In this document: one piece after another, positions 5,132-36,789 of the stretch | How positions within the stretch are numbered: position 1 is the stretch's first letter | Layout: the number at the start of each line of letters is the position of its first letter | From: Acidobacteriaceae bacterium | GTDB taxonomy: Bacteria > Acidobacteriota > Terriglobia > Terriglobales > Acidobacteriaceae | Length of the DNA: 36,789 bases | Assembly (NCBI GenBank): GCA_013361705.1 | Contig: JABFXN010000132.1 | Location: forward strand, 1 to 36,789 | Reading direction: 5' to 3' | Translations under genes and position numbers: made by a program | The notes under the pieces: generated by a model | Told to the model about the DNA's origin: nothing | Database searches by the model: none | Seen by the model: only the letters and a program-made list of their open reading frames with translations

Positions 5132-6037
5132 TTACCGGAGCAATCCAATCCCCGCCGCCGCAGCAATCGCCGCGACCAATGTCGATAAAAAGTTCACCAG
5201 GTCATTGCCCAGCCAGCCCGCCCGTTCCACGGTCGCTCCCAGGAACGTGTCGACGAAGAGGCCAAGAACTCCGGCGAAGAAGGCGACTGCCGCTACCTTC
5301 GGAGTCAGCAGGAGGGCCCACCAACCGATCCCGGTCACAATTGCCGCTCCGGTAACGCCCGCGAAGGTGCCCACCATCGAGATAGCGCCGTCCGTTCCCG
5401 GCGGAACGCGACGAAATCCAAGCCACGGTTCTCCGCCGAAGACCTGTCCGATCTCTGAAGAGATGGTGTCAGCCGTCGCTTCGGCCAAGGCTGCCAGACA
5501 TGCTGCCAGCGATGCGAAGTAGCTGAAGGGGTAGGGAAGTTTGAAAAATTTGCCAAACAGCCATGCACCAAGCCAGGTGACGATCAGCGCCGCGACAGCC
5601 AGGTTGGCGGCGACTTGCGACGCCGTTCTTCCGTGCTTCGGCTCGGCCAGACCCGCACGCTCTTTCTCCGCACGGCGAACCCGTGTCGCTGCCCAGGTCA
5701 GAAGGAAGAGCGCCAGTAATGGAGTCAGAGCGGAATGCAGCAGGTTGCTGTTGTAGTCACGAGTCCAGGCGATCAGGTCGAAGCAGACCAGCGCTCCCAT
5801 CAGGCAGCCACCCAGCGTCGCCGACCGCAGGGCGAAAACCACCATCGCGAAAGCCACGGCAATCGCAAGAGGCCCTGCAACGAAGGGAAATCCCGCGCGT
5901 CCAAAACTGAAGACAAAGATGGAATAGCAGGTCAGCAGCAGGGTGCAGGCGCAGGCGGCCGTCAGTAACTGTGACTGCAGCCGGTCACGGGATGCCGGGA
6001 TGGTTTTTCCGGGGATAGAGAGTGTGGTCTGGCTCAT
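5132..6037 (-). CDS. DUF92 family integral membrane protein
   Basis: 'ASLAACLAALAEATADTISSEIGQVFGGEPWLGFRRVPPGTDGAISMVGTFAGVTGA' matches the DUF92 signature. Confidence 0.88.
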   Translation of the reverse strand: MSQTTLSIPGKTIPASRDRLQSQLLTAACACTLLLTCYSIFVFSFGRAGFPFVAGPLAIAVAFAMVVFALRSATLGGCLMGALVCFDLIAWTRDYNSNLLHSALTPLLALFLLTWAATRVRRAEKERAGLAEPKHGRTASQVAANLAVAALIVTWLGAWLFGKFFKLPYPFSYFASLAACLAALAEATADTISSEIGQVFGGEPWLGFRRVPPGTDGAISMVGTFAGVTGAAIVTGIGWWALLLTPKVAAVAFFAGVLGLFVDTFLGATVERAGWLGNDLVNFLSTLVAAIAAAAGIGLLR

Positions 6038-6099
6038 GCACCTGTGATTTACAATCGGCTTTGAGCATATCGGACCTTGGTCTGTGTTTGGGAGATGGT

Positions 6100-7422
6100 T
6101 TGGCGTCAGAAGTGCGGTACGGAAAGAGAGTGCTGGCGAAGGCCGGTGCAGTGTTGGCGGCGGCGGCAGCGCTGGTTCCGTTGAGCGGTTGCGGCAATAC
6201 GTATCGCGCCGTCGTGAGCTCCATCAACCCCGTTGGCCCGGCGACCCAGCCGCAGAAGCTGCTGGCTGTGGTCTCGGATCCAGGAAGCGGACAGCCCGGT
6301 CTGATCACGGTTGTTGATTTCTCCGGAGACACGGTTCTGGCGATTGCGAATATTGCTCCGAAGCCGACGTATTTCGATCTGGCTCCGGCGAGCAACGGCG
6401 GTACGGGATACTCCCTGCATACCAGCTCCAGCGGTACGGTGATGAATAACTTTGACGTCTCGCCTTCGTTGAAGACGAACATCGTGTATTCCACGACGTT
6501 GTTCTCCAATGCGAACGCGAACTCGCTGTTCGCGACCTCCTCGGGAGCGTTCGTCAGCGAGCTTGGACGGTCCGCCGTTGGCCAGATCATCGGTGGTTCA
6601 CCGGCTTCGCTGCGCCAGGAGTATGACGTTGCGGCCAATCCGCAGTACGTTGTGGGTCTTACCACCGGCACGCGCTACTACGCGATCAGCCAGGGTTCAG
6701 GCTCTACCGGTTCGGTGGCCGCGATTGATACCTCGACCAACACGATCTCCAGCTCCATCAACGTCGGCACTCAGCCTGTCTATGGTGTGATGACCTCCGA
6801 TGCGAAGCGCGTCTTTGTGATGAACAAGGGCAGCAATACCGTGTCGGTGATCAACTCACAGGCCAATACTGCTGACGTCGCGCATCCCACCATCACCGTG
6901 GGTACTGCCCCTGTCTGGGCCGATGTGGTCAGCACCATCAACGAGCTTCTGGTCCTGAACCAGGGTTCGACGACCAGCTCTCTCAGTGTGGTCAGCATCC
7001 CGCTCTGCAACGCCAACAGCTCGACGAGCAACCCGAACTGCGACACCAACAACCCGGTGGATGCGACAGATTTCGGCACGGTTGTGGCTACGGTGCCGCT
7101 GGGCACCAACTGCACCCAGGTATCGGCGCTGCAGGACGGAACCCGTGCTTACGTCATGTGCAACGACGATCCCACGGCATCTGATGCCAACAACGGTCTG
7201 GTCTACGTCGTCAATCTGACCACGAACACCGTGACGGCGAAGGTGAAGGTGGTCGGTCATCCGAACTGGATCACCGCGGTTACCGGCACGCCGAAAGGCA
7301 AGGTCTATACCACTGCCAGCGACTCACACTTTCTCACGGTCATCGATACCAGCACCGATACGCGTTATACGACGATCGATATTCTCGGCAACGGTGTATC
7401 CGTACGTCGCAACGCGCAGTAA
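6100..7422 (+). CDS. Lipoprotein/secreted YncE-like beta-propeller repeat protein
   Basis: Lipobox 'LVPLSGC', then repeats such as 'VAAIDTSTNTISSSINVGTQPVYGVMTSDAKRVFVMNKGSNTVSVIN'. Likely start TTG at 6100 (GGAG upstream) rather than ATG 6022, which overlaps the divergent DUF92 gene. Confidence 0.85.
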   Translation: MASEVRYGKRVLAKAGAVLAAAAALVPLSGCGNTYRAVVSSINPVGPATQPQKLLAVVSDPGSGQPGLITVVDFSGDTVLAIANIAPKPTYFDLAPASNGGTGYSLHTSSSGTVMNNFDVSPSLKTNIVYSTTLFSNANANSLFATSSGAFVSELGRSAVGQIIGGSPASLRQEYDVAANPQYVVGLTTGTRYYAISQGSGSTGSVAAIDTSTNTISSSINVGTQPVYGVMTSDAKRVFVMNKGSNTVSVINSQANTADVAHPTITVGTAPVWADVVSTINELLVLNQGSTTSSLSVVSIPLCNANSSTSNPNCDTNNPVDATDFGTVVATVPLGTNCTQVSALQDGTRAYVMCNDDPTASDANNGLVYVVNLTTNTVTAKVKVVGHPNWITAVTGTPKGKVYTTASDSHFLTVIDTSTDTRYTTIDILGNGVSVRRNAQ

Positions 7423-29793: not shown

Positions 29794-29867
29794 TGCCCTC
29801 TCGTTCAATGGTAGGACAGTCGGCTCTGAACCGATCAATCGGGGTTCGAATCCCTGGGGGGCAACCA
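29794..29867 (+). tRNA. tRNA-Gln(CUG)
   Basis: TGCCCTCTCGTTCAATGGTAGGACAGTCGGCTCTGAACCGATCAATCGGGGTTCGAATCCCTGGGGGGCAACCA; anticodon loop CTCTGAA; CCA encoded. Confidence 0.95.
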
Positions 29868-29956: not shown

Positions 29957-30253
29957 ATGACCGAGATGAGCTTTTTTGCTCGGCAAGCCAAGCGGATCGA
30001 AACTCTGGCGTTGGCGCGTGATGCAAGAGATGTCGCAAAACGAGCTCATGAATCCGTCGTTCAGATTTTCCGATTTGCAATCGCTCGCGAACGAGCAACA
30101 GATCCGGCGGCCGAGTTCAAACCAAGGGACATTCTTGCCCAGGCTAGGACTGAGAACTTTGCCCGTGTCGATGCCAAGGATCTGCCGGAGTTTTTGGTCA
30201 AGATGGATGGCTACAACGGCGATGCCATTATGCCCATCTGGCCGCCTAGCTGA
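29957..30253 (+). pseudogene. P4-type tyrosine integrase remnant (core-binding region only)
   Basis: 'KRIETLALARDARDVAKRAHESVVQIFRFAIARERATDPAAEFKPRDILAQARTENFARVDAKDLPEFLVKMDGYNGD' resembles the mid-region of P4/IntS-family integrases. N-terminal domain and RHRY catalytic domain absent. Confidence 0.75.
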
Positions 30254-30321: not shown

Positions 30322-30636
30322 GTGTCCGGCGAAGCATCTTTGCCCCTAAATCACGGTGATGTGGATCCACAATCTCGTATTCCCATCCGGCGGAAGATAG
30401 ACATCGCAGGACACCAGTTGGTGAATGCGGATTGGAACAAGCTTCAAGACGGCTTTCATGTCGAGGTAAGCGTCATCATCTGGCAGTCAGACAATATCCT
30501 CTGTATCCCGTCGAGCGCGATGTTTCGATCAACAAATTGCCAAGACGGCACTCCGGATGCCCATTTACTACTTCATAAGTCGGCCACTGATAGAAATGTG
30601 ACAGCAGTCACTGAAGGATATACGTCCGCTGGATAA
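30322..30636 (+). pseudogene. Fragment of an HlyD/RND-type periplasmic adaptor (membrane fusion protein)
   Basis: 'LQDGFHVEVSVIIWQSDNILCIPSSAMFR' matches the conserved 'LGDGYRVEARIVIWxxDDVLKVPxSALFR' stretch; downstream part unrelated. Confidence 0.62.
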
Positions 30637-31395: not shown

Positions 31396-31411
31396 TGTGA
31401 CTTCCATCACA
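31396..31411. promoter_or_regulatory. CRP/FNR-family-like site TGTGA-CTTCCA-TCACA
   Basis: Exact match to the TGTGA-N6-TCACA consensus, 68 bp before the rubrerythrin ATG. Confidence 0.65.
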
Positions 31412-31479
31412 TCAGATGACACAAAACCTCATTAGCCTAAGATCGGTGACGTCGACGTCTACGCCAGATCGGAGGACCT

Positions 31480-31968
31480 ATGAAAAGCATCGTGATGATC
31501 GCCGCGGGCATCTTCGCTGTTGCCGCCACTGGAGCAACGCATCACCCGACAGATTCCAAACTGAATGAGCAGACACGGCAGAACTTGTCGACTGCGATGC
31601 ATGGTGAGGCATTTGCTTACGTAACGTACATGGCCTATGCAGAGCATGCTCGTAACAGCAATCAAGGCGACCTTGCGGCGTTGCTCGAGGAGACGGCTAA
31701 AACTGAGCGGTTCGAACACTTCGTCGAAGAAGCCAGATTAGCGGGGCTATTCGGGTCAAATGCGGAGAACCTGGAAAATGCGATCAACGGCGAGTCTTAT
31801 GAAATCGAGACGATGTACCGCAAGTTTGCACAAGAGGCCGAACGAGCAGGTGATCACGAAGTCGCTCAACGCTTTGAAGAAATTCGGCAGGACGAAGTCA
31901 AGCATAGGGATGCGTTCATCACTGCTCTCAAAAGCGTGAAGCATAAAACAGCGAGCGGACTTCGATAG
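31480..31968 (+). CDS. Rubrerythrin/ferritin-like diiron protein with N-terminal signal peptide, no rubredoxin domain
   Basis: 'MKSIVMIAAGIFAVAATGA' leader; 'NLSTAMHGEAFAYVTYMAYAEHARNSNQGDLAALLEETAKTERFEHF', 'AINGESYEIETMYRKFAQEAERAGDHEVAQRFEEIRQDEVKHRDAF'. Confidence 0.88.
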   Translation: MKSIVMIAAGIFAVAATGATHHPTDSKLNEQTRQNLSTAMHGEAFAYVTYMAYAEHARNSNQGDLAALLEETAKTERFEHFVEEARLAGLFGSNAENLENAINGESYEIETMYRKFAQEAERAGDHEVAQRFEEIRQDEVKHRDAFITALKSVKHKTASGLR

Positions 31969-31986
31969 GGACCAGAGAGGGATGCT

Positions 31987-32492
31987 ATGAAAACCTGGTT
32001 GAAGTGGACTATTGTCGGTTGCCTTATTGCTGCGGCGATTCAACTCATTCAGCCGGAGCATTCTAGCGGCCCGATAATTCCTGATCAGACGATCCATGCC
32101 AGATTGTTGATGGATCCCAATGTTGAAGCCACATTTGTGCGTTCATGTAATGATTGTCATTCCAATAGAACAATTTGGCCTCGTTATAGCCGCATTGCTC
32201 CGATATCGTGGCTGGTGGCCGCAGATGTTCGTCGAGGGCGGAATAGTCTGAATTTTCGGAGTGGGCATCCTATCCTCCGGAAAAGCAAAAAAAGCAGCTC
32301 GCAGATATTTGCGAGGAAGTCACGGACGCAGAGATGCCGGGAAAGCTATATACGTTCATGCATCCAAGCGCAAAGTTGACGGATGCAGATGTCAAATTGA
32401 TTTGCTCATGGTCGAAGGCTGTCGACATTTCGCAGCACCCTGATACAGCTACAAGCTATGAAGATATGACGATTGGTGCACCAGCCTATTGA
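31987..32492 (+). pseudogene. Haem-binding domain (CxxCH) protein, interrupted by one frameshift near 32253-32256
   Basis: Frame 1 '...VRSCNDCHSNRTIWPRYSRIAPISWLVAADVRRGRNSLNF' then +1-shifted 'SEWASYPPEKQKKQLADICEEVTDAEMPGKLYTFMHPSAKLTDADVKLICSWSKAVDISQHPDTATSYEDMTIGAPAY*'. Joined sequence follows the Haem_bd family pattern. Confidence 0.85.
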
Positions 32493-32658: not shown

Positions 32659-32779
32659 ATCGCGCTGGGCCTGTTCATAGTCGCTTCTGGACCTTATGAC
32701 GATAGCCTCATTTTGCTTTTTGGTGGCCAACGCGGCATTGAGATGGGCTTCAAGGACGGCATTCTGGCGCGGGTCAATC

Positions 32780-32923
32780 GGCGATGGATCGCAAACCACT
32801 GTAAAAATCGGCCATAGAGGCGAAGATTTGTGGCAGGTCGTCGATGGCGTATCAGAGGGTGCAGAAGTAGTCGTTCACCCTGCGGTCGAGATAACCGACG
32901 GTGTACGCGTACGTAAACGCTGA
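32780..32923 (+). pseudogene. C-terminal remnant of an HlyD-type adaptor
   Basis: 'TTVKIGHRGEDLWQVVDGVSEGAEVVVHPAVEITDGVRVRKR*' matches the C-terminal 'VEIGxR..xxAEVxSGLxEGDxVVxHPSDxxxDGVRV' of the same adaptor family as the 30.3-kb fragment. Confidence 0.62.
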
Positions 32924-33072: not shown

Positions 33073-33088
33073 TGTGATGTATATCACC
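33073..33088. promoter_or_regulatory. CRP/FNR-family-like site TGTGA-TGTATA-TCACC
   Basis: Palindromic core GTGAT-GTAT-ATCAC, 52 bp before the ppsA ATG. Confidence 0.6.
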
Positions 33089-35787: not shown

Positions 35788-36789
35788 TCAGTAGCGGAGA
35801 AGTGCCCGAACAGGCTGAGTCGTTTCTTGCTGCGCCCAAACCTTAGCATCCGAGAGGAGTGCTCGTGTGGCGAGCAGCGCTTCCGGGAGGACTCGATGCA
35901 GTCCCGTACCGTCGCAAAACATACAGATCTTGCGATCCGCCGGCTGGGATCTTCCGCACCCATCGCATTCCATGAGATCGCCTCCCATATCATGCGTCAT
36001 GATGAGAGCGGAAGCCTCTCCGTTCTCAAGAGCGGCCAAGACGCTCGCCATGCCCGTCACGGAACGCCCGTGCGATTGTTCCGTCTCGAGCGTGGAACTT
36101 CGCGCTACTCGCATTTGCTTTAGAGATTGTTCGACCGCAGACATTACTTCGTGCTCAGACGCTTCAAAACTCTGCAACGGAGAAAAGGCGACGATGTATT
36201 CCTTGTCTAAAGAGGCAAACTCGCGACTAGCGTGCCCCCACAGCTCCTTGCGACACCCGATCACTATGTCTCCGATATGCAGGCGATTCAGCCATTCGGC
36301 TGTTTGGCGTTCAAGTTCACGCCAATAGGCCTCGCTTCGATGAGCTATATTTCCTTGGATATGGTGAGACCATCCCACACGAGAATCATCTGCATGCACC
36401 TTGAGGTCACTGTTGGGTAGCGCCTCTCGCAACTCTTTGAGTGCATCACCTTGTCCCACGAACAGGCGGGCTTTGTCTGACTCCAGAAGGAGCACGAGAA
36501 AGGGCTTACACGATTCTAGTGCGTGCAATAGCGGGAAAAGGTCGAGTCGGTATCCAGTTTGGATCTGGCTTATGTCCAATGACACAGGTAGTGTGCCGGA
36601 TAGTGTTTCAGTCCCCGCCCTTAGGAAGTAGTGGAAGGCACCGGGGTGATCCTGGATTGCTTGGCTAAATGAAACGAAACTAGACGAAGAGAGCCACGGA
36701 AATTTGCTGGCCGATTCGTTCATTTTTTTCAGGAACAGTTCTATCTCAAGGCGCTGAGAGTTCCCCGTCGCTCCCAGTTTCTGCGAGAA
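35788..36789 (-). CDS. Bacterial archaeo-eukaryotic release-factor-like (baeRF/eRF1-like) protein, 5' end outside the window
   Basis: 'DLFPLLHALESCKPFLVLLLESDKARLFV', 'SHHIQGNIAHRSEAYWRELERQTAEWLNRLHIGDIVIGCRKELWGHASREF', C-terminal zinc-ribbon 'CDGCGRSQPADRKICMFCDG'. Upstream of ATG 36723 the frame stays open to 36789. Confidence 0.72.
   Translation of the reverse strand, partial: FSQKLGATGNSQRLEIELFLKKMNESASKFPWLSSSSFVSFSQAIQDHPGAFHYFLRAGTETLSGTLPVSLDISQIQTGYRLDLFPLLHALESCKPFLVLLLESDKARLFVGQGDALKELREALPNSDLKVHADDSRVGWSHHIQGNIAHRSEAYWRELERQTAEWLNRLHIGDIVIGCRKELWGHASREFASLDKEYIVAFSPLQSFEASEHEVMSAVEQSLKQMRVARSSTLETEQSHGRSVTGMASVLAALENGEASALIMTHDMGGDLMECDGCGRSQPADRKICMFCDGTGLHRVLPEALLATRALLSDAKVWAQQETTQPVRALLRY

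Follow-up and report, generated by a model that had tools for sequence, protein, structure and literature searches.

Background

Most descriptions of rubrerythrins are of cytoplasmic peroxidases that receive their electrons from rubredoxin-type donors. Their canonical ligands are a Glu, a Glu-x-x-His, a Glu-x-x-Glu and a Glu-x-x-His spread across four helices, with Glu-x-x-His occupying helix 2 of both canonical rubrerythrin and sulerythrin. For rubrerythrins that lack rubredoxin, few electron donors are known. Rubredoxin-less proteins make up a known large class, and genes for DUF3501 and an Fe-S oxidoreductase are linked to those of the aerobic type (PMC5114695). In the E. coli quinol peroxidase YhjA (Ccp) electrons run from quinol to an N-terminal (NT) haem, which has M125 as its tested axial ligand, then on to the E haem and the P haem; the gene is under Crp/Fnr-family control (PMC10301912).

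Here we analyse a 36,789-nucleotide stretch of DNA from an Acidobacteriaceae bacterium (the window), in which a gene for an exported rubrerythrin (Rbr) stands next to a gene for a haem-binding (Haem_bd) protein. The parts are known, the pairing is new and the metal-site motif is modified (ExxxH); no description of an exported rubrerythrin paired with Haem_bd was found in the open-access literature, subscription papers being outside the search.

Results

An exported rubrerythrin with a shifted helix-2 histidine

The open reading frame at 31480..31968 (+) encodes a 162 aa protein from an ATG start and matches Pfam Rubrerythrin PF02915 at 2.1e-16 (61 bits, cut-off 22.8), with a further match to the ferritin-like family PF00210 at 3.8e-6. 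AlphaFold gave a four-helix bundle with a mean pLDDT of 88 and residues 30-159 mostly above 90, for which the best Foldseek match was sulerythrin (sulerythrin/rubrerythrin E 2.9e-6), and the closest PDB matches were sulerythrin and the Burkholderia pseudomallei rubrerythrin, not ferritin or bacterioferritin. Pfam, AlphaFold and Foldseek agree on the ferritin-like four-helix bundle of the PF02915 fold. The chain stops after helix 4, Pfam found no rubredoxin domain in it and the rubredoxin-like Cys4 domain of classical rubrerythrins is missing. The original prediction had described a signal-peptide-like leader and no rubredoxin domain, and both are borne out, the leader being present across the exported acidobacterial orthologs. 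It had also treated the missing domain as unusual, but with a large class of such rubrerythrins already known (PMC5114695) that absence alone is not.

A Sec-type signal peptide covers approximately residues 1-19 (31480..31536, +) as judged by hydrophobicity and ortholog comparison. The leader reads MKSIVMIAAGIFAVAATGA and is followed by THH, with cleavage likely to fall after ATGA (residues 16-19). Its maximal 12-residue Kyte-Doolittle mean is 2.78, against about -0.1 in leaderless relatives (L032, L035), and the exported acidobacterial relatives range from 1.7 to 3.5. Their N-termini generally carry 1-2 Lys/Arg and a hydrophobic core, most have a type I-like junction of A with Q, E or D (for example THA-QN, ITA-QS and INA-ES, the hyphen marking the junction) and no twin-Arg motif was seen in the Rbr leaders. 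By comparison among these proteins, Sec export is strongly indicated. A cytosolic location was considered and rejected for the exported subgroup; among the leaderless relatives (L032, L035 and the g66 paralogs L060-L064) none has an adjacent Haem_bd.

The putative diiron ligands E43, E76, H80, E105, E108, E139 and H142 are invariant in an alignment with 25 relatives. E105xxE108 and E139xxH142 are kept, and helix 2 carries Glu-x-x-x-His (E76...H80), in which the His lies one residue off the canonical position; the PDB alignments are gapped at this point and the canonical spacing was taken from general knowledge. Judging from this shift, the chemistry may differ from that of canonical rubrerythrin. 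The same helix-2 motif spans the whole rubrerythrin subfamily, including Chloroflexi and Eremiobacterota MAG relatives, and looks alike by eye in the actinobacterial ones.

A Haem_bd partner in two reading frames

After a gap of 18 bp (31969-31986), rbr is followed by a Haem_bd gene (31987..32492, +; Pfam, ORF frames). The ORF from 31987 matches PF14376 at 4.1e-20 and encodes an N-terminal hydrophobic membrane anchor and a CNDCH haem-c motif. It stops out of frame at 32379, the gene running in frame 1 to approximately 32256 and in frame 3 onward to 32492, so that its second half (SEWASYPP...EMPGKLY...HPSAKL...W) lies in the other frame. Pfam also splits the gene into two matches (32026-32292 and 32247-32417), the window fragment scoring 72.5 bits (cut-off 27) and the intact ortholog L014 136.5 bits. 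In tblastn the first-half match ends at the same base where the second-half match starts, at a T-run, TTTT (32253..32256, +; AATTTTCGG), and alignment places the loss of frame against all intact orthologs there, the window gene being one base short. The conserved motifs are kept in both halves. The haem partner in the window genome is broken or mis-assembled, and the frame break could be either a natural (recent) mutation or a homopolymer assembly error. Of the predicted anchored CxxCH protein 18 bp after rbr, the gap, the anchor and CNDCH therefore stand, but the window holds two frames and not one gene reading through to 32492.

Intact Haem_bd orthologs of approximately 150-168 aa are found at nine other loci (L014, L015, L017, L018, L019, L021, L025, L031 and L033). 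AlphaFold produced a weak Haem_bd model (pLDDT 60.6 from 9 sequences). Cytochrome-c assembly genes are present in the window's genome, as are two further Haem_bd proteins (L065 and L066), one having a C-terminal extension with a second CxxCH and the other being fused to a cytochrome c-like domain.

Haem_bd corresponds to the electron-input domain of YhjA

A profile built from the nine intact orthologs matched one PDB chain, 9qdt, at 3e-6 over residues 11-109; the chain is annotated 'probable cytochrome c peroxidase'. In E. coli Ccp/YhjA (b3518) PF14376 covers residues 19-152 (4.6e-30) and is followed by CCP_MauG. When the paired Haem_bd was compared with the YhjA NT domain, hhalign returned 94%, and the alignment and hhalign both set CxxCH against C59-C62-H63 and an invariant Met-Pro against M125. 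The His/Met ligation of a quinol-peroxidase NT haem domain is thus matched by alignment only (YhjA H63, M125). Since the paired protein aligns with the NT domain, Haem_bd corresponds to the domain through which a quinol peroxidase takes in electrons, encoded here as a protein of its own next to a diiron protein. This correspondence gives the idea of Haem_bd as electron donor independent support, and it speaks for electron supply more strongly than adjacency does. Pfam found no CCP_MauG di-haem catalytic part in the pair, which may work like a YhjA-type quinol peroxidase but is not a member.

The pairing recurs at differing loci

A scan of genome contigs yielded 39 Rbr relatives and more came from searching 61, 200 and 397 genomes related to that of the window; with duplicates merged, 27 distinct exported acidobacterial Rbrs remained. 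Haem_bd adjoins Rbr at 12 of these 27 loci (the window, L014, L015, L017, L018, L019, L021, L022, L025, L031, L033 and L072). The order is rbr then Haem_bd with short gaps in 11 of the 12, and is reversed in L025 with a gap of approximately 53 bp. The flanks vary between L014/L015, L017/L019, L021, L031, L033 and the window, and include an AI-2E permease (L014 and L015), a cation ATPase (L021), a VWA protein (L031) and a TonB-type receptor upstream (L025); gyrB adjoins the pair in L017, and in L019 an amidase-like gene lies between the pair and gyrB, both as read from sequence. Both pair genes are intact in L021, the genome of the isolate Acidobacteriaceae bacterium KBS 146, where rbr occupies 6001-6474 and Haem_bd 6515-6991.

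An exported Rbr and any Haem_bd occurred together in 8 of the 25 Rbr-bearing genomes searched, and in all eight the two are neighbours, the adjoining Haem_bd being the only one of its genome in four. We estimate chance adjacency at ~1e-3 or less per genome, given 1-3 copies in 3-5 Mb. Chance was rejected on the recurrence, the differing flanks, the reversed order and the neighbouring position in 8/8 genomes that hold both genes, and the linkage elsewhere that had been anticipated for the pair is upheld. Over 11 pairs, distances among the Rbrs correlate with those among their Haem_bd partners (r=0.86, Mantel p 2e-4), which may reflect shared descent only.

No adjacent Haem_bd was found at the other 15 exported Rbrs, among them all 7 in the order's sister family, and where their genomes were searched there was no Haem_bd anywhere, so other donors must serve these proteins. 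For three of the 15 the contig breaks off shortly beyond rbr, but a search of their genomes found no Haem_bd either. Haem_bd is common in the family mostly without Rbr (58/200 genomes), and co-presence alone is therefore not enriched (4/8). The rbr gene is rare, being found in 12/200 family genomes at E<=1e-15 with leaderless forms included. Extending the search from the order to the whole phylum brought in no further loci, and plasmid relatives were distant rubrerythrins only (<60% identity). A lone Haem_bd very similar in sequence to the paired one of L033 was also seen (L077), with the same operator upstream and no rubrerythrin beside it.

A Crp/Fnr-type operator precedes rbr

Consensus search located a Crp/Fnr-type operator, TGTGACTTCCATCACA, at 31396..31411 (+), its centre 76 bp before the rbr start, and the site is conserved upstream of rbr in orthologs. 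The TGTGA-N6-TCACA palindrome was present with 0-2 mismatches in 11/11 paired loci with rbr first; in shuffled upstreams 0-1 mismatches arose in ~0.5% of cases and 2 in ~6%. The full TGTGAY-N4-RTCACA pattern has 6 sites in the 5.17-Mb genome, the window site included, and the reversed-pattern control has 0. A -10-like hexamer, TAGCCT (31433..31438, +), identified by TAnnnT spacing, lies 29 nt from the operator centre. TAnnnT stands at this offset in 8/11 loci (the window, L014, L015, L017, L018, L019, L021 and L072) and at offset 30 in L020, and operator and hexamer are spaced as in a promoter of class II that Crp/Fnr activates. The unpaired exported Rbrs L020, L026, L057 and L058 also carry the operator, and none was found upstream of the sister-family exported Rbrs.

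Within the window GTGAY-N4-RTCAC occurs three times (30598-30611, 31397-31410 and 33074-33087) against 0.10 expected, the sites preceding a membrane protein ORF (30800), rbr and a PPDK-like gene (33141), all inside a tRNA-Gln island. A full-consensus operator was also seen at position 1508 of L102, ~144 bp upstream of what reads from its sequence as a cytochrome oxidase subunit I-like gene.

The window pair lies in a probable decayed island

A tRNA-Gln (CTG) found by ARAGORN at 29794..29867 (+) is the probable island integration site; no second att copy, as a direct repeat of the tRNA-Gln end, was found within the window. It is followed by an integrase remnant (29957..30250, +) with a tyrosine recombinase central domain (Pfam Phage_int_M 5.8e-4, below the curated cut-off), 63% identical to a fragment that precedes the pair in L072. 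A C-terminal HlyD/RND adaptor remnant at 32696-32920 resembles the adaptor downstream of the L021 pair. Taken together, the tRNA-Gln and the two remnants suggest a decayed mobile island. Among 19 same-genus genomes the rbr gene is in the window's genome only. ORF 30322-30636 may be another HlyD/RND adaptor piece, and a baeRF family 10 release-factor protein of the bacterial archaeo-eukaryotic type is encoded at the island end (35791-36723).

Discussion

From the export signal, the adjacency, the operator, the homology and the haem and diiron motifs we infer a split envelope diiron quinol peroxidase encoded by a small operon, a reading towards which we lean slightly. With its N-terminal helix as inner-membrane anchor, the Haem_bd protein would hold one His/Met c-type haem in the periplasm and would be reduced either by the quinol pool or by a cytochrome c. 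It would then hand the electrons from haem to diiron site in the exported rubredoxin-less Rbr, which would reduce H2O2 to water and possibly also organic peroxides or O2. If active in this way, the pair would be a diiron counterpart of YhjA/Ccp, in which Haem_bd feeds a di-haem peroxidase. As to its physiological role, the pair is probably switched on at oxic/anoxic transitions by a regulator of the Crp/Fnr family.

Rbr might instead be mainly an envelope ferroxidase or iron binder of the bacterioferritin/Dps kind that oxidises Fe(II) with O2 or peroxide, its haem neighbour exchanging electrons with iron or merely being co-regulated. Membership of the ferritin-like superfamily (PF00210), a helix-2 motif that departs from the canonical peroxidatic rubrerythrin and the many genomes that hold an exported Rbr without Haem_bd all lend this some weight, but the top structure and sequence matches are to rubrerythrin and sulerythrin and not to ferritin or bacterioferritin, and its specific partner is a domain that serves a peroxidase for electron input, so that we regard such a role as unlikely. 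Similarly improbable in our judgement is that the two proteins act independently within a Crp/Fnr low-oxygen stress island, with Haem_bd serving a general c-type chain. At 12 loci whose flanks otherwise differ, one of them with the gene order reversed, Haem_bd is the immediate neighbour, and independent proteins could be co-regulated without adjacent genes, against which must be set the confinement of the window's only three GTGAY-N4-RTCAC sites to the island, the solitary L077 protein behind the same operator as its near relative and the frequency of Haem_bd without Rbr.

A further possibility concerns just the copy in the window and can stand beside any functional reading of the family, namely that this pair is the decaying relic of an integrated island with Rbr intact, the haem partner a pseudogene and no working pair present. 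The chances of this fall a little short of even in our view. The haem gene is frame-shifted, integrase and HlyD-adaptor remnants lie alongside with tRNA-Gln next door, and the gene is confined to one of the 19 same-genus genomes; yet the second half of the haem gene retains all its conserved motifs, the break sits in a T-run, a kind of sequence prone to assembly errors, and the rbr gene and its operator are intact.

Going beyond the split peroxidase itself, we suggest tentatively that such pairs could form a new class of two-protein quinol-dependent envelope peroxidase, in which an ExxxH diiron Rbr takes the place of the di-haem catalytic module and receives electrons from a YhjA-type haem domain on a second protein, spread among Acidobacteria by tRNA-linked islands and held under Crp/Fnr control. 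If the proposal is true, respiration supplies an exported rubrerythrin with electrons, and the haem domain through which quinol peroxidases take in electrons can be reused as a module to serve a diiron enzyme. The pair gives a testable hypothesis for peroxide handling by soil Acidobacteria at oxic-anoxic transitions, and the intact copy in the isolate KBS 146 makes testing practical.

Comparison with known systems

Sulerythrin and the B. pseudomallei rubrerythrin share the rubredoxin-less four-helix diiron fold with the window Rbr. The classical rubrerythrin of Desulfovibrio vulgaris belongs to the same superfamily and has the same carboxylate ligand set with a weak sequence match, but it has a C-terminal rubredoxin domain, whereas the window Rbr has a leader, no such domain and a separate haem partner. 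The aerobic-type rubrerythrins have DUF3501 and an Fe-S oxidoreductase as linked genes, whereas Rbr is exported, linked to Haem_bd and carries ExxxH in place of ExxH; assignment to their gene cluster (Cardenas 2016; DUF3501 and RFO neighbours) was rejected, the neighbours here being an unassigned membrane protein, Haem_bd and PPDK. Exported Rbr-like proteins of actinobacteria and Eremiobacterota (L036-L044, L049) fall within the same ExxxH subfamily and have leader peptides, but they lack an adjacent Haem_bd and several of the actinobacterial ones are tandem two-domain proteins. Among these, L039, L041, L043, L044 and L049 are exported actinobacterial proteins with a leader, several of which appear to have two tandem rubrerythrin domains.

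The likeness to YhjA/Ccp lies in the N-terminally anchored Haem_bd, the CxxCH with a distal Met, the envelope location and the Crp/Fnr-family control, YhjA being under FNR and OxyR control in parallel to the Crp/Fnr-type operator of the pair. Tyrosines of the YhjA anchor helix are proposed for quinol contact, whereas the likeness of the pair rests on CxxCH and Met. YhjA is a single tri-haem chain with a catalytic CCP_MauG part, whereas the pair consists of a separate Haem_bd protein and a neighbouring diiron rubrerythrin.
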